Positions 4,395 to 30,611 of a stretch of DNA of 33,839 nucleotides are shown here, in pieces; the stretch's first letter is position 1; every line of letters starts with the position of its first letter. The DNA is from a virus, in IMG/VR virus record IMGVR_UViG_3300020189_000772, positions 1 to 33,839 of that record; one strand, written 5' to 3'. Position numbers and translations under genes: made by a program. The notes below the pieces were generated by a model. The model was not told where the DNA came from, ran no database searches, and worked only from the letters and a program-made list of their open reading frames with translations.

Positions 4395-5657
4395 TTATCC
4401 TACGCCTACGTGGATATCTGTTAATATATTCTTCTCTTCATTACCAGTAATCGGCATTGGTCTTCCATTGATACCCATCCAAGTGTTGTTTCTTTGGATT
4501 CCCATATGGTTTAACACAGTCCATCTTAAATCTAGAGGGCCGCACTCACCATCTTCTGGAAATTCAGCGTTTGCGTTAGAGGTTCCAATTACACGGCCCA
4601 AGTCGTAGCCGCCACCAGCAAACATTAGTGGTACGTTTCCACTCCAGTGATCACGTCCAGCGTTACCGTTGATTTTAGGTGTTCTTCCAAACTCTGTGGC
4701 GACAACCAGAAGGGTGTTCTCAAACAAGTCCCTAGCTTGCAACTCGTCCATCAGCAAGCCAATATATTTGTCTAGCGTTACCTGTCTGCTGTTTAGTGCG
4801 TTAACCATTCCGGTGTGCATATCCCAGCCACCATACTGAATATTTACAAACTTAGCACCGTTCTGTATAGCTCTAACTGCGGCTAAGGCATCCTTGCCTA
4901 ACTGATCATCCTTAAATGTACCGTATTTAGAATCTTCTTCAATTCTAAAAGTTTCAGCCGCTTTGCCGGTTATAGCCGTGAGAGCTTGATTTTGGAACTC
5001 TCTCCAGTCTTCTCCTCGTCCTTTGAAGGGAGAATGTTTCTCTACTAAGTCTAGCAGACCTTTTCTCTCCATGAATTTTTCCTTAGACATCTTTAACTGG
5101 AGATCGCCTACGCCTTCTCTATTGGCTTCGTAGCCCATATATTTCTGACCAAGAAAAGCTGCTCCATCCCCATCAATTTTGTTCATCTTAATATAGGTGG
5201 GTAGACCATGAGGTTGAGATACTGGCCCGTAATAGCCAGCAATCATAGCTCCGTAACTAGGATAATTCTGAACAGTACTGCCTTGGTTTCTCTCGCCACC
5301 AACAACCCAATGAGTAGCAGTTTGATGGTTAGAATCTTTATGAGCGAAACTTCTGACAATGTTAATTTTATCAGATCTTTTAGCTACTTCCTTGAAGAGT
5401 CCACCTATCTTTACCGTTGGAATTTTAGTCTCTATATGACCAGTGGCAGACCGTCTTTCTACTGTGGAATTTGGGATGGGATTAAATGTCTCGATGTGAG
5501 TCGCTCCTCCACCCATCCACAGAAAGATTACGCTTTTGTCGTTTTTAGTAATTTTGGGGGAATATTCATCAGCATAAGAAACAGCGATATTGTCGCTCGC
5601 TAGATATGCTCCACCAAGAAAACTAGTTCCGTAAGTTAAAAAATCTCGCCTTTTCAT
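4395..5657 (-). CDS. Tat-exported DUF1501 family protein
   Basis: 420 residues, the usual length of this family. The N-terminus KRRDFLTYGTSFLGGAYLA is a twin-arginine signal (RR at 3-4, FL, then a hydrophobic stretch). The body carries DUF1501 landmarks: SVIFLWMGGGATHIETFNP (42-60), a His-rich stretch near 106-116, YGGWDMH (275-281) and EFGRTPKINGNAGRDHW (322-338), an alkaline-phosphatase/sulfatase-like metal site pattern. These proteins are secreted or periplasmic and very abundant in Planctomycetes; their reaction is unsettled. A GGAGGCG ribosome site sits just before the ATG. A small frame with its own Tat-like leader ends one base upstream. I see no truncation, so it is probably functional. 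Presence in a phage is unusual. Confidence 0.88.
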   Translation of the reverse strand: MKRRDFLTYGTSFLGGAYLASDNIAVSYADEYSPKITKNDKSVIFLWMGGGATHIETFNPIPNSTVERRSATGHIETKIPTVKIGGLFKEVAKRSDKINIVRSFAHKDSNHQTATHWVVGGERNQGSTVQNYPSYGAMIAGYYGPVSQPHGLPTYIKMNKIDGDGAAFLGQKYMGYEANREGVGDLQLKMSKEKFMERKGLLDLVEKHSPFKGRGEDWREFQNQALTAITGKAAETFRIEEDSKYGTFKDDQLGKDALAAVRAIQNGAKFVNIQYGGWDMHTGMVNALNSRQVTLDKYIGLLMDELQARDLFENTLLVVATEFGRTPKINGNAGRDHWSGNVPLMFAGGGYDLGRVIGTSNANAEFPEDGECGPLDLRWTVLNHMGIQRNNTWMGINGRPMPITGNEEKNILTDIHVGVG

Positions 5658-8677: not shown

Positions 8678-9099
8678 TTACTCCCACAGTATTTACAGTT
8701 GCTTCTAGTATTATTATAGTATTCAGGAAGCTCTTTTGCAAGTTCAAAACCGAAATTTTCTAGGTTTTTACACGACATGCATCGACCATCTGGCCTAACC
8801 CAAGCGTAAGAGACTACTTGTTCGCAGTCTCCTAAATATTTTAATCTTTCTTCTGTTAATCTTTTGCCGATACCTTGACCTCGATAGTCTGGATGTACTG
8901 CGATACAGCGTAACATACAGTCTCCAACCGCTGCCCATCCTATAACCTTGTCACCATCAAGTGCTATCCATGCACAGTCAATTTCTTCTAGATGGTTCTT
9001 AAAGTACCCAGCAGCAAACGCTTCATCTACAAGTTCAACTGCGTCGAACATTTGTTTGTAACCAAACAGCGGACTGGGTATCGCTGCATATTTAATCAT
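8635..9099 (-). CDS. GNAT-family N-acetyltransferase with C-terminal cysteines
   Basis: 154 residues. Motif A, RCIAVHPDYRGQGIGKRL (64-81), is the acetyl-CoA pyrophosphate loop of GNAT enzymes. Cysteines at 107, 110, 135, 138, 142 and 144 form pairs after the catalytic core and could bind zinc. The acceptor is not known; phage GNATs acetylate host or phage proteins, peptides or antibiotics. It lies between GMP reductase and primase with near-zero gaps. A sigma-70-like promoter candidate lies within it (8713-8741) and could express the primase operon separately. Confidence 0.78.
   Translation of the reverse strand: MIKYAAIPSPLFGYKQMFDAVELVDEAFAAGYFKNHLEEIDCAWIALDGDKVIGWAAVGDCMLRCIAVHPDYRGQGIGKRLTEERLKYLGDCEQVVSYAWVRPDGRCMSCKNLENFGFELAKELPEYYNNTRSNCKYCGSNCTCVARLYVKTQP
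8713..8741 (-). promoter_or_regulatory. Candidate internal promoter before primase
   Basis: Minus strand TTGCAA (8741-8736), 17-base spacer, TATAAT (8718-8713), inside the acetyltransferase gene and ending about 35 bases before the primase start. Same hexamers and spacing as the dnaE promoter, but it lacks the CGTAGAC spacer end and lies in coding DNA (Leu-Pro-Glu-Tyr-Tyr-Asn-Asn), so chance is possible. Confidence 0.4.
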
Positions 9100-10175
9100 T
9101 ATATACTCTGATCGTTATGAGTACGATTGACACGAACAAAACGTGCCGTTTTACTAAAGTCCTTTAATGAAGTAGCTCCCGTATAAGCACAAGCACTCCG
9201 AACACCGCCACAAATATCTCGAACCACTCCATCTACCTTCCCCTTATATGGAACAACTTTAATTCTACCTTCGCTGGTAGCATAATCATTCATACCATCG
9301 TTATGTTTGTTCTGTGCTGTTTCTGATGACATGCCATAAAAAATAAGACCAGTTTTATGTTCCAAGCCCTTATCGTCTACTTCGTATTCCCATGATCCTT
9401 CACACTCGTCTGTGCCAGCGAACATACCGCCCAGCATCACAAAGTCTGCCCCAGCAGCGTAGGCTTTAGCTACATCACCAGCAGTCCTACAGCCACCATC
9501 TGCACAGATGAGGCCAAGTCTACCAGCATCAGACCTTAAACCATGAGCTACGTGGGCACACTCTGCAATAGCTGAAAGCTGTGGGTATCCAACGCCTGTC
9601 TTTAGTCGGGTCGTACATGCAGAGCCGGGACCAATCCCGATCTTTACAATGTCAACTTCGCCATGTAGGATAAGTTCTGATACCATCTCTGGTGTGCAAA
9701 CATTACCCGCCATGATAATTGAATCAGGAAATTCTAATCTGATTTTACCACAGTAGTCAACAAACCTCTCTGTGTAACCATTAGCAATATCAATACAGAT
9801 GTTAGGTTGAATAGATGAATTGTCTTCGATATAGAATAATCGCTCCAACTCATGCTCAAGATCCATACCAATACTAACCCAGACATTATGCTCTACATTA
9901 TAATATTTGTAGTAGTCATCAATCACATCAGCGGCATAATGTTTATGTAAACAAGTCACCATCTCATGATTGTTAAGGGCAGTTCCCATTTTAAATGTGC
10001 CAGTAGTGTCCATGTTGGCAGCTACCAACGGTACACCATGCCACTCTTTTGGAGACCAGTAAAACTTAAACCTCCTAGTTAAGTCTACTTCTTTTCTACT
10101 TGCCGCTCTCGATCTTTGTGGTACGAGTAAGACATCATCGAAATCTAACTTTGGTTCTGGATCAATCTTGAGCAT
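9099..10175 (-). CDS. guaC: GMP reductase
   Basis: 358 residues, close to the 347 of E. coli GuaC. TIM-barrel IMPDH/GMPR family: FDDVLLVPQRS near the start, GVPLVAANMDTTGTF, the catalytic loop GIGPGSACTTR with Cys187 (E. coli Cys186), TGVGYPQLSAI, DGGCRTAGDVAKA and FVMLGGMFAGTDE. No CBS domain insert is visible, which favours GMP reductase over IMP dehydrogenase. The enzyme uses NADPH to turn GMP into IMP, moving guanine nucleotides towards the adenine branch. It sits between helicase and acetyltransferase with near-zero gaps, so it is part of the replication operon. A phage-borne copy is uncommon. IMPDH is the main alternative; AANMDTTGTF and the overall order favour GMPR. Confidence 0.88.
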   Translation of the reverse strand: MLKIDPEPKLDFDDVLLVPQRSRAASRKEVDLTRRFKFYWSPKEWHGVPLVAANMDTTGTFKMGTALNNHEMVTCLHKHYAADVIDDYYKYYNVEHNVWVSIGMDLEHELERLFYIEDNSSIQPNICIDIANGYTERFVDYCGKIRLEFPDSIIMAGNVCTPEMVSELILHGEVDIVKIGIGPGSACTTRLKTGVGYPQLSAIAECAHVAHGLRSDAGRLGLICADGGCRTAGDVAKAYAAGADFVMLGGMFAGTDECEGSWEYEVDDKGLEHKTGLIFYGMSSETAQNKHNDGMNDYATSEGRIKVVPYKGKVDGVVRDICGGVRSACAYTGATSLKDFSKTARFVRVNRTHNDQSI

Positions 10176-25158: not shown

Positions 25159-25626
25159 TTATACACTTTTTTTGAGTGAAACCCTCATCTTTTCAAGATT
25201 TTTCCCAATTCTAATTCTGACAGTCTCTCCACATACTTTCCTGCTCTTCGCAATCTCTGTAATTGTCATATTTTTATAGAATCTGTCAAAAATAAGCTCA
25301 GGATCGTCACAAACTGACTCAATTACGTCTTTCATTTCAAATTCTGCCATAGGATTTCGCGGGTCAGGAATGGCATTGGTCAGTTGTTGCTTGTCGCTTT
25401 TGTTAATTTTAACCTGACCAAGACACTCAAATCGTACTCCGTTGTATAGGTATGATGTAAATTTTACATTACTGGATTTGTCATACTTATTTACGGCTCT
25501 GAACAGTGCTTTTAAAACACAGCTTTGAATTTCTTCTGAAGTCAGAACATTTCTGAATGAAGATGCTGCATCATATGCAATTTTCATAGTGTCAACGTCA
25601 TTTAGGTACTGTTCGTATTTATCCAT
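25159..25626 (-). CDS. Small phage sigma factor
   Basis: 155 residues from the ATG at 25626, one base after the previous stop, with GAGGAC upstream; a start at 25665 would overlap the previous gene by 38 bases. Region 2-like helix (SEEIQSCVLKALFRAVNKYD, then FTSYLYNGVRFECL) and a C-terminal helix-turn-helix (ITEIAKSRKVCGETVRIRIG) match sigma regions 2 and 4. It would direct RNA polymerase to a phage class of promoters, probably late. No anti-sigma partner is seen. Confidence 0.78.
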   Translation of the reverse strand: MDKYEQYLNDVDTMKIAYDAASSFRNVLTSEEIQSCVLKALFRAVNKYDKSSNVKFTSYLYNGVRFECLGQVKINKSDKQQLTNAIPDPRNPMAEFEMKDVIESVCDDPELIFDRFYKNMTITEIAKSRKVCGETVRIRIGKNLEKMRVSLKKSV

Positions 25627-25627
25627 G

Positions 25628-26068
25628 TTAATTTTTGTCCTCAAAGTTAGTGAGTAGGGTTTCAATATTGTTTCTTACATCTGTGAAATCAAACATTCTG
25701 CCAACGCCAAGGAAGAATCTGTATCTACTGCATATCTTCAATACTTCAACACCTTCGCTTTTTTCAATTTTATCTTTAATTTCTCCTGTTATATTAAAGT
25801 TAGTGTGACCCATCCAGCAATCAAAGTTTTGTGACATGGAGATTTTCTCCATCAGTTGGTCATCAACCGGAACCATGAAGTTGGTTTCAGGTTGCGGAAA
25901 CATGCTTTCTAATTGCTCTAATTCTTCTTCGTCTAAATCTTCCAGAGGAATCTCTGGAGGCATGCTTTTCTTTACGATCATATCTAAAAGAGGGCTATCT
26001 AGTTGGGACTCTATCATGTCTTCATATTTCTGCCATCCTATCTGCATTTTTTTGTTTATTTTTTTCAT
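25628..26068 (-). CDS. Hypothetical phage protein before the sigma factor
   Basis: 146 residues. Acidic middle (PLEDLDEEELEQLE) and a C-terminal half with FDCWMGHTNFNIT, then VLKICSRYRFFLGVGRMFDF, which I have seen in proteins of large phages without a known function. Stop is one base before the sigma ATG. No signal or catalytic motif. Confidence 0.5.
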   Translation of the reverse strand: MKKINKKMQIGWQKYEDMIESQLDSPLLDMIVKKSMPPEIPLEDLDEEELEQLESMFPQPETNFMVPVDDQLMEKISMSQNFDCWMGHTNFNITGEIKDKIEKSEGVEVLKICSRYRFFLGVGRMFDFTDVRNNIETLLTNFEDKN

Positions 26069-29310: not shown

Positions 29311-29844
29311 TTATAAATTTTCAAAGTTTTCTGCCGATTCAATAAGTGCGTAATTACATAGGTAATTCTTAGGAAAGAACTTGAACTCAATCCTATCCTC
29401 AATCTGTTTTAGTATTTCATCATATCCATCACTCCACATGCACGACTTTGGTGAAGATACGTTGGTGTAGTAGATTTCGTGAATACCGCACTGCCAGAGC
29501 ATTTGTAAGCATCCTCGGCATGGGATAGCCGTAATATAAGCTCTTGCACCCATTGTAGATTGCCCTTCGCGAGCAGCATTATAAACAGCATTAGCCTCTG
29601 CGTGAATCATAAATGGATACTTAGCAGGTCTTGTATTAGGCAACACGAAGTCATCTATTCCTCTGATGAAACCATTATAACCTGTCGCTATAATTGTTTT
29701 ATTCTTTACTAATACGCAACCGCACTGTGTTTCGGAATCATGACTCTTACGCGACCATAAAGTTGCAGTCGCAAAGAACATATTATCCCAATCATCGGGT
29801 CGATTTTCTTGCATTAAATAAGACAAAATAAGTTTCTCTGACAT
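29311..29844 (-). CDS. dCMP/cytidine deaminase family protein
   Basis: 177 residues from the ATG at 29844, with GGAGG five bases upstream; a TTG four codons earlier is part of that ribosome site. Zinc motif HAEANAV (81-87) with E83, and PCRGCLQML with C109 and C112. The product is dUMP, which ThyX can methylate, or uracil/uridine if a free base or nucleoside is the substrate. It follows the structured RNA unit (promoter P5). Confidence 0.85.
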   Translation of the reverse strand: MSEKLILSYLMQENRPDDWDNMFFATATLWSRKSHDSETQCGCVLVKNKTIIATGYNGFIRGIDDFVLPNTRPAKYPFMIHAEANAVYNAAREGQSTMGARAYITAIPCRGCLQMLWQCGIHEIYYTNVSSPKSCMWSDGYDEILKQIEDRIEFKFFPKNYLCNYALIESAENFENL

Positions 29845-29957
29845 AATAACCTCCAATAAGCCCCGTTTGGATGATAAGGACGAGGCGACTCCCCAGACAG
29901 CTTACGCTGCCAGAGCAAAACAAGGTTCTGCATTTACTGTTTGATCGATTTTTAAAC

Positions 29958-30035
29958 TGTTTGTTGTTGATTTATATATCTCAATGCGGACTCTAAAACT
30001 TCTGAGGTTTAAGACACATAAATCAACAACAAACA
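29958..30035 (-). repeat. Inverted repeat, 18 bp perfect, 42-base loop
   Basis: The arms 29958-29975 (TGTTTGTTGTTGATTTAT) and 30018-30035 are perfect reverse complements. It forms a long stem between the T-arm/CCA module and the deaminase leader and is not followed by a T run, so it is not a normal terminator. Confidence 0.85.
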
Positions 30036-30100
30036 ACTGGAAGCCCTTCGATCAACTTCCGATTGCAGCTATTACCTACGTCACCTGTCAAATCTACGAT

Positions 30101-30241
30101 GGCCCATCAGAAACACACTACTCTCAACCTACTCACTCGTTTTCGGAAGATCGTATGACCATCGCTCAAATACCATTTCGACTTGATATTTGAACTACCA
30201 GTCGAGTTCTGGCGATCACGGTAGTGTGCTTCTGGTGGACC
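30101..30241 (-). repeat. Imperfect inverted repeat, 21 bp arms
   Basis: Arms 30101-30121 and 30221-30241 match at 18 of 21 positions. As minus-strand RNA two mismatches become G-U pairs and one A-C remains; on the plus strand only one is G-U. The enclosed part contains a TCAAATA/TATTTGA stem and a CCAG/CTGG stem. It overlaps the CCA-end module at 30233-30241. Confidence 0.75.
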
Positions 30242-30266
30242 ATACGGGGAGTCGCACCCCGTGTCC
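30233..30266 (-). ncRNA. T-arm/CCA-like module without a 5' half
   Basis: On the minus strand, GGAC, then CGGGG TGCGACT CCCCG (a T-stem and T-loop with C56/A58-like positions), then TATGGTCC ACCA. No GGACCAT acceptor partner, D-arm or anticodon arm is found upstream. It resembles the 3' end of a tRNA or tmRNA. Confidence 0.4.
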
Positions 30267-30315
30267 AGAATGATTTTAGCAACAACATCTACAATCATAT
30301 CTGGCAAAGCCAGAG

Positions 30316-30388
30316 AGCTACCTGTGGGAGTCGAACCCACAACCTGAACATTACAAATGTTCTGCTCTGCCGATTGAGCTAAAGTAGC
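30316..30388 (-). tRNA. tRNA-Thr (UGU)
   Basis: 73-base minus-strand cloverleaf. Acceptor GCTACTT/AGGTAGC, D-arm with AGCTC..GAGC, anticodon stem GAACA / TGTTC with loop TTTGTAA (anticodon TGT), T-arm GTGGG TTCGACT CCCAC, discriminator T. CCA is not encoded. It lies 4 bases after the tRNA-like element. A phage tRNA-Thr UGU would favour ACA codons. Confidence 0.88.
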
Positions 30389-30392
30389 AAAT

Positions 30393-30451
30393 AGTGAATG
30401 GCGGGATTTTCACCCGCGAGTCTAGTGTTGTCCATCTGTCTAATCACTCAC
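30393..30451 (-). ncRNA. Shortened tRNA-like element (59 bases)
   Basis: Acceptor GTGAGTG (30451-30445) pairs with CATTCAC (30400-30394) over seven positions with one G-U. T-arm GCGGG TGAAAAT CCCGC (30417-30401) is well formed. Only 27 bases lie between them, and none gives a 5-bp stem with a 7-base loop, so no anticodon is readable. The T-loop also lacks the usual C56. Confidence 0.5.
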
Positions 30452-30582
30452 CAGCTATTATCTCCAGACATATCTGGGTTTATCGTCGTACCTACGTGCT
30501 GGGGCTTCCGACTTCACTCATTGTATAGATCAAACTGATCTAATTAAGAACCTCATCAAAATTGTTAATCGGACATACATCT

Positions 30583-30611
30583 ATTATATACTAGCAAACA
30601 CGATTTGTCAA
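30583..30611 (-). promoter_or_regulatory. Consensus promoter P5 of the structured RNA unit
   Basis: Minus strand TTGACA (30611-30606), 17-base spacer, TATAAT (30588-30583). The same CACTTGACAAATC start as P4 and P6. It lies about 130 bases before the tRNA-like element. Confidence 0.85.

Follow-up and report, generated by a model that had tools for sequence, protein, structure and literature searches.

A phage small-RNA locus containing a circularly permuted tmRNA gene and a conserved tRNA-like element

Phage-encoded two-piece tmRNA is an established kind of RNA: methylophage Melnitz has one, as do 17 of the 47 contigs clustered with it (PMC9004378). Bacterial permuted tmRNAs are covered by RF04321, which merges RF01849, RF01850 and RF01851 (Alphaproteobacteria, Betaproteobacteria and Cyanobacteria). 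The endonuclease genes described earlier in tmRNA genes lie in group I introns (PMC11915505), and mycobacteriophage DS6A has an RNA of little more than a tRNA-like domain, reported as an inhibitor or decoy of the host rescue system (PMC4131195, PMC11915505).

The locus described here lies in a 33.8-kb virus record (the whole stretch that was analysed, referred to below as the window), which also encodes ribonucleotide reductase, RecA-like and DnaB-like proteins, ThyX and dCMP deaminase. It is read on the minus strand, following a perfect promoter of the sigma-70 type, in the order promoter, tRNA-like element, tRNA-Thr(TGT) and permuted tmRNA gene (Table 1). A preliminary description of positions 29860-30578 had proposed a structured RNA locus with tRNA-like parts, downstream of a consensus promoter; the promoter is present, just beyond that interval. 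The one good tRNA that had been noticed is the tRNA-Thr, and the two incomplete tRNA-like modules are the 3' acceptor piece of the tmRNA and the separate element upstream of the tRNA-Thr.

As in bacterial permuted tmRNA genes, a CCA-ending acceptor piece, a spacer and a coding piece follow in the same order, the acceptor and P2 stems are paired, and the tag ends in -ALAA. In contrast to them, the gene is phage-borne, with an unusual T-loop and hairpin inserts in both the spacer and PK1, while its relatives include spacers with endonuclease ORFs, and close relatives have standard-order genes. The Melnitz tmRNA is likewise phage-encoded and permuted, but it has a glutamine riboswitch, whereas Rfam searches of the window reported no riboswitch and no group I intron, and the gene neighbourhood differs. 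With the tmRNA genes containing a group I intron and LAGLIDADG gene (PMC11915505), our set shares a homing-type endonuclease gene inside the tmRNA gene that is absent from the mature RNA; here, however, no group I intron was found, the enzymes are of the HNH or endonuclease VII type, and the ORF lies in the permuted spacer or, in one standard-order gene, in PK1. Four features look new: the occurrence of two gene forms, the endonuclease in the spacer, the co-variation at the elbow and the tRNA-like RNA.

Table 1. Positions of the features of the locus within the window
Feature	Positions	Strand	Remarks
dCMP deaminase gene	29311-29841	-	Directly downstream of tmRNA gene; syntenic marker
Hairpin after tag	29860-29886	-	GCCTCG/CGGGGC; counterparts in relatives; by eye
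Tag reading frame	29902-29931	-	AEPCFALAA-stop; hydrophobic -LAA type end; frame intact
tmRNA coding piece	29902-30105	-	From acceptor 5' strand GGGCCAT (30099-30105) to tag stop
Pseudoknot PK1	29941-30060	-	GGAAG/CTTCC (30039-30060) and TTGATCGA/TCGATCAA (3' strand 29941-29948); from sequence
Segment in PK1 loop	29949-30038	-	90 nt, holding inserted 28-bp hairpin
Spacer (IVS) between tmRNA pieces	30106-30232	-	127 nt, long hairpin; presumed removed
tmRNA acceptor piece	30233-30296	-	P2 5' strand, T-arm, acceptor ATGGTCC, CCA at 30233-30235
tRNA-Thr	30315-30388	-	Anticodon TGT; 68.6 bits
tRNA-like element	30394-30520	-	67.9 bits to model R1
Promoter	30583-30611	-	TTGACA-17 nt-TATAAT; read directly

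The permuted tmRNA gene and its hairpin inserts

Judged from its sequence, the main part of the locus is a circularly permuted (two-piece) tmRNA gene. On the minus strand the acceptor piece with its CCA (30296-30233) stands upstream of the 5' piece (30105 onward); GGGCCAT pairs with ATGGTCC, keeping the G3-U70 alanine identity pair, and the P2 stem is paired. The window matched RF04321 at 52.2 bits (gathering cut-off 47) over full model positions 1-213; a separate first-look search had given positions 1-156 only, at 39.3 bits. ARAGORN did not call a tmRNA in the window, and called the same tag, AEPCFALAA, in two relatives (L003 and L004). The T-loop, TGCGACT with G at base 55, departs from the canonical TTCRANY, a sequence that is usual for permuted tmRNA and not strictly defining, and an exact T-arm pattern search gave no match; a possible sixth T-stem pair and the long PK1 segment are the other unusual features.

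Two long inverted repeats, already noticed in the preliminary description, correspond to the arms of the PK1-loop hairpin (29958-29984/30009-30035) and to a stem, some 12-14 bp long, that closes the spacer. Folding bore out the claim that they pair better as minus-strand RNA: the PK1-loop hairpin reached -33.6 kcal/mol on the minus strand versus -24.2 kcal/mol on the plus strand (minus-strand z -8.7 against shuffles), and the spacer hairpin -45.0 versus -27.4 kcal/mol (z -4.6). Matches of the PK1 hairpin to microRNA and Phe_leader families in Rfam were below their cut-offs and were set aside as chance on a long hairpin. The spacer of the window is without an endonuclease; its terminal inverted repeat (CAGAAGCACACTA) is common to L066, the interior of which differs. 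The permuted tmRNA spacer of G008 (L010, 3445-3580) has an imperfect direct repeat (AAAGTTGGGTCAGGGTTCCCA...).

A distant relative, G036, has a standard-order tmRNA with an endonuclease VII ORF (PF02945, 3.9e-19) between inverted repeats in its PK1 loop. The PK1 loop has therefore taken inserts more than once, and both it and the spacer tolerate them.

Relatives, gene order and spacer endonucleases

Thirty-seven related viral records were gathered by scans from the neighbouring deaminase and the tRNA-like core. RF04321 scored above its cut-off in 23 of the 37, mostly at 62-105 bits, and eight more gave weak or split matches; on inspection, five of these proved to be standard-order genes and three to be permuted genes whose spacer contains an endonuclease ORF. 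ARAGORN made tmRNA* calls among the relatives, with tags ending in LALAA, FALAA or AMAA, and wherever a relative's gene was read through, its tag frame proved to be preserved. For covariation, 21 distinct tRNA-like domains including that of the window (17 permuted, 4 standard) were aligned, with rows cut out by helix and helix limits set by the analyst. In this alignment 98.3% of cells were paired and compensatory, two-sided changes occurred in 13 of the 20 pairs tested; none of 500 shuffles scored as high, and no slid structure came near. The G3-U70 position was G-U in all 21 distinct rows, window included, and the acceptor alleles GGGGGYG/CRCCTCC, GGGCGTG/CACGTCC and GGGCCAT/ATGGTCC all retain it. 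The selection on RNA that had been proposed from the window is thus supported by clear covariation in relatives, whereas the statement that the unit matches no known family does not hold for its main part, given RF04321, the conserved tag and the covariation.

In five records (G021, G025, G026, G027 and G028) a standard-order tmRNA gene lies upstream of the same deaminase (RF00023, 77-108 bits). ARAGORN calls a tmRNA in four of the five, and the coding modules of four of the five genes have 73-82% identity to permuted ones (z 10-15). That a single phage group has tmRNA genes of both the standard and the permuted order, each followed closely by the same dCMP deaminase gene, looks new. On L136 (2713-3002) ARAGORN calls a standard tmRNA with the tag GKNTLALAA, and the contig also carries the tRNA-like element. 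In a deaminase tree, run with a few permuted or duplicate rows left unlabelled, the standard form needs three changes, two of them forced by well-supported branches, and one standard gene groups beside permuted ones (96/91 support). The 500 bp following the tmRNA genes of L072 and L059 are 99.8% identical, but the tmRNA genes themselves only 79%, which in this one case shows allele replacement. Because of this replacement, the repeated changes of form may represent swaps rather than fresh permutations.

The same two sequences differ at the tRNA elbow. Six sequences, that of the window among them, combine A at D-loop base 18 with G at T-loop base 55, and eighteen combine G with U. Given the relatedness of the sequences, the association should not be read as a probability; position 18 was assigned by hand in several rows. 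This joint change (A18-G55 or G18-U55) looks new. The rule is not universal: in L119-L121, which make up a third type, the D-loop is shorter by one G and the T-loop reads CTCGTTA.

An HNH-type ORF lies in the tmRNA spacer of three related phages. Close homologues found from these three queries were located in a permuted tmRNA spacer in seven cases out of seven (the three queries and four independent sequences). Each has a TATAAT-like and a Shine-Dalgarno-like sequence of its own and reaches its stop codon 8-13 nt into the tmRNA 5' piece. An eighth match (L125), partial and at 39%, is not at a tmRNA. The spacer ORFs gave endonuclease matches in PHROG (6.5e-23 and 8.4e-27) and no significant match in Pfam. 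We found no report of an endonuclease ORF in a permuted tmRNA spacer in the literature searched, and an HNH family housed there looks new. From its location, we infer that the endonuclease probably spreads by cutting alleles that lack it and copying neighbouring tmRNA sequence along.

The tRNA-like element

The element upstream of tRNA-Thr consists of a 5' acceptor strand and AAGTCGG (30503-30520), a 52-nt hairpin insert (30451-30502) and a core, with the hairpin AGATGGACAACACT and a T-arm at 30394-30451. For this module the earlier statement of no known family stands: neither in the window nor in most relatives does it match an Rfam family, and the highest score among the relatives' elements was 29.2 bits to tRNA, in a single relative (cut-off 29). 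Apart from the window, 22 viral stretches contain the core, AAGTCGG...TTAGACAGAT-N-GACAA-N'-ACTAGA-YTC. In its first form, the pattern had no match in 84,980 species genomes of bacteria and archaea, and blastn found the core in no phage record. A covariance-model search of 44 records gave strong matches in 20 (55-77 bits); any others were weak, below 25 bits. The element often lies within tRNA clusters or adjoins the tmRNA.

Two-sided changes are seen in each of the seven acceptor pairs. The pair that closes the hairpin, with both bases left free in the search pattern, was G-C, C-G or A-U in all 20 copies that were read; the search patterns prescribed the remainder of the core, the invariance of which is therefore partly by design. 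Like tRNA (RF00005), the element has a 7-bp acceptor stem, a 5-bp T-stem with a 7-nt loop and a cloverleaf-like layout. Unlike tRNA, it has a near-invariant core (AAGTCGG...TTAGAC), its T-loop is mostly TGAAAAT, no tRNA was called by ARAGORN where scanned, and in place of an anticodon arm (5 bp, 7-nt loop) it has a bulged 4-bp stem with the 5-nt loop GACAA. Because of this 5-nt loop, ordinary decoding is unlikely. A conserved cloverleaf-like RNA that is without a normal anticodon arm and without a well-matching Rfam family looks new; it could be a decoy that diverts host enzymes or defences directed at tRNA, or serve as a tRNA-processing substrate that delivers the core.

Proposed operation and alternatives

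We consider it very probable that the locus is a phage small-RNA operon, comprising promoter, tRNA-like RNA, tRNA-Thr and permuted tmRNA, that serves ribosome rescue, with a probably homing endonuclease in the spacers of relatives. The CCA-ending acceptor piece would be transcribed first, with the disposable spacer next and the coding piece last; enzymes of tRNA processing would excise the spacer, and the two pieces would pair via the acceptor and P2 stems. Alanine would be loaded through G3-U70 and, together with host SmpB, the RNA would free stalled ribosomes and tag proteins with AEPCFALAA. No SmpB gene was found in the 12 phage records searched, so the host must supply this protein.

A hint as to that host, albeit a weak one, comes from a DUF1501 protein with a twin-arginine-like N-terminus (4395-5657, minus strand; PF07394, 2.2e-61), a family that is frequent in Planctomycetes and relatives. 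Its best match in the host search was a 25% relative in Daejeonella; isolate phages had no match to it, and neither it nor the thioredoxin-like proteins matched a phage. Searches by blastn with the tmRNA and tRNA-like sequences found no true isolate phage relative, and the terminase of one relative has at most about 26% identity to known phages. The window also encodes an enzyme of the IMP dehydrogenase/GMP reductase family (9099-10175, minus strand) and a small sigma-70-like factor (25159-25665, minus strand), which could drive phage-specific promoters; in a related phage, a manA RNA motif (RF01745) lies downstream of the deaminase (L005, 3154-3331).

The low score of the window (52 bits, against mostly 62-105 in relatives over the cut-off), the non-standard T-loop, the failure of ARAGORN, the possible sixth pair of the T-stem and the PK1 segment of 90 nt might all be expected if the gene had been acquired earlier, then disrupted by hairpin inserts and T-loop mutations and left nonfunctional here. 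We regard such decay as improbable, because the tag frame is intact, P2 is paired and the acceptor stem, although changed at several positions, is fully paired with G3-U70 kept; moreover, both inserts fold as closed hairpins that hold their flanks together, and the G55 class of T-loop recurs in relatives with intact genes. Slightly less probable still is that the RNA, by binding SmpB or alanyl-tRNA synthetase of the host, weakens the host's own ribosome rescue. Its altered elbow and the precedent of DS6A would fit such an inhibitor, but a decoy would not need a tag, the frame of which is kept in every relative read through. That a new structured RNA unrelated to tmRNA came to resemble tRNA pieces by convergence would account for the lack of an ARAGORN call in the window; we think it highly unlikely in view of the RF04321 match over threshold, the -ALAA tag, G3-U70 and the homologues called tmRNA* by two independent programs.

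Returning to the proposed operon, the presence of both gene orders just upstream of the same gene in one group of phages allows direct tests of how gene permutation arose, and the co-variation of bases 18 and 55 is a natural experiment on the tRNA elbow. We judge the chances to be evenly balanced that the tRNA-like element belongs to a phage RNA family not described before (a cloverleaf that does not decode, in which an acceptor stem that varies freely, with compensation, surrounds a nearly invariant core) and that permuted tmRNA spacers house, with no intron, homing endonucleases through which tmRNA alleles are exchanged from phage to phage. The element is a candidate new phage RNA, and the relatives point to the disposable spacer of a permuted RNA gene as a place where a mobile endonuclease can reside safely in the absence of an intron.
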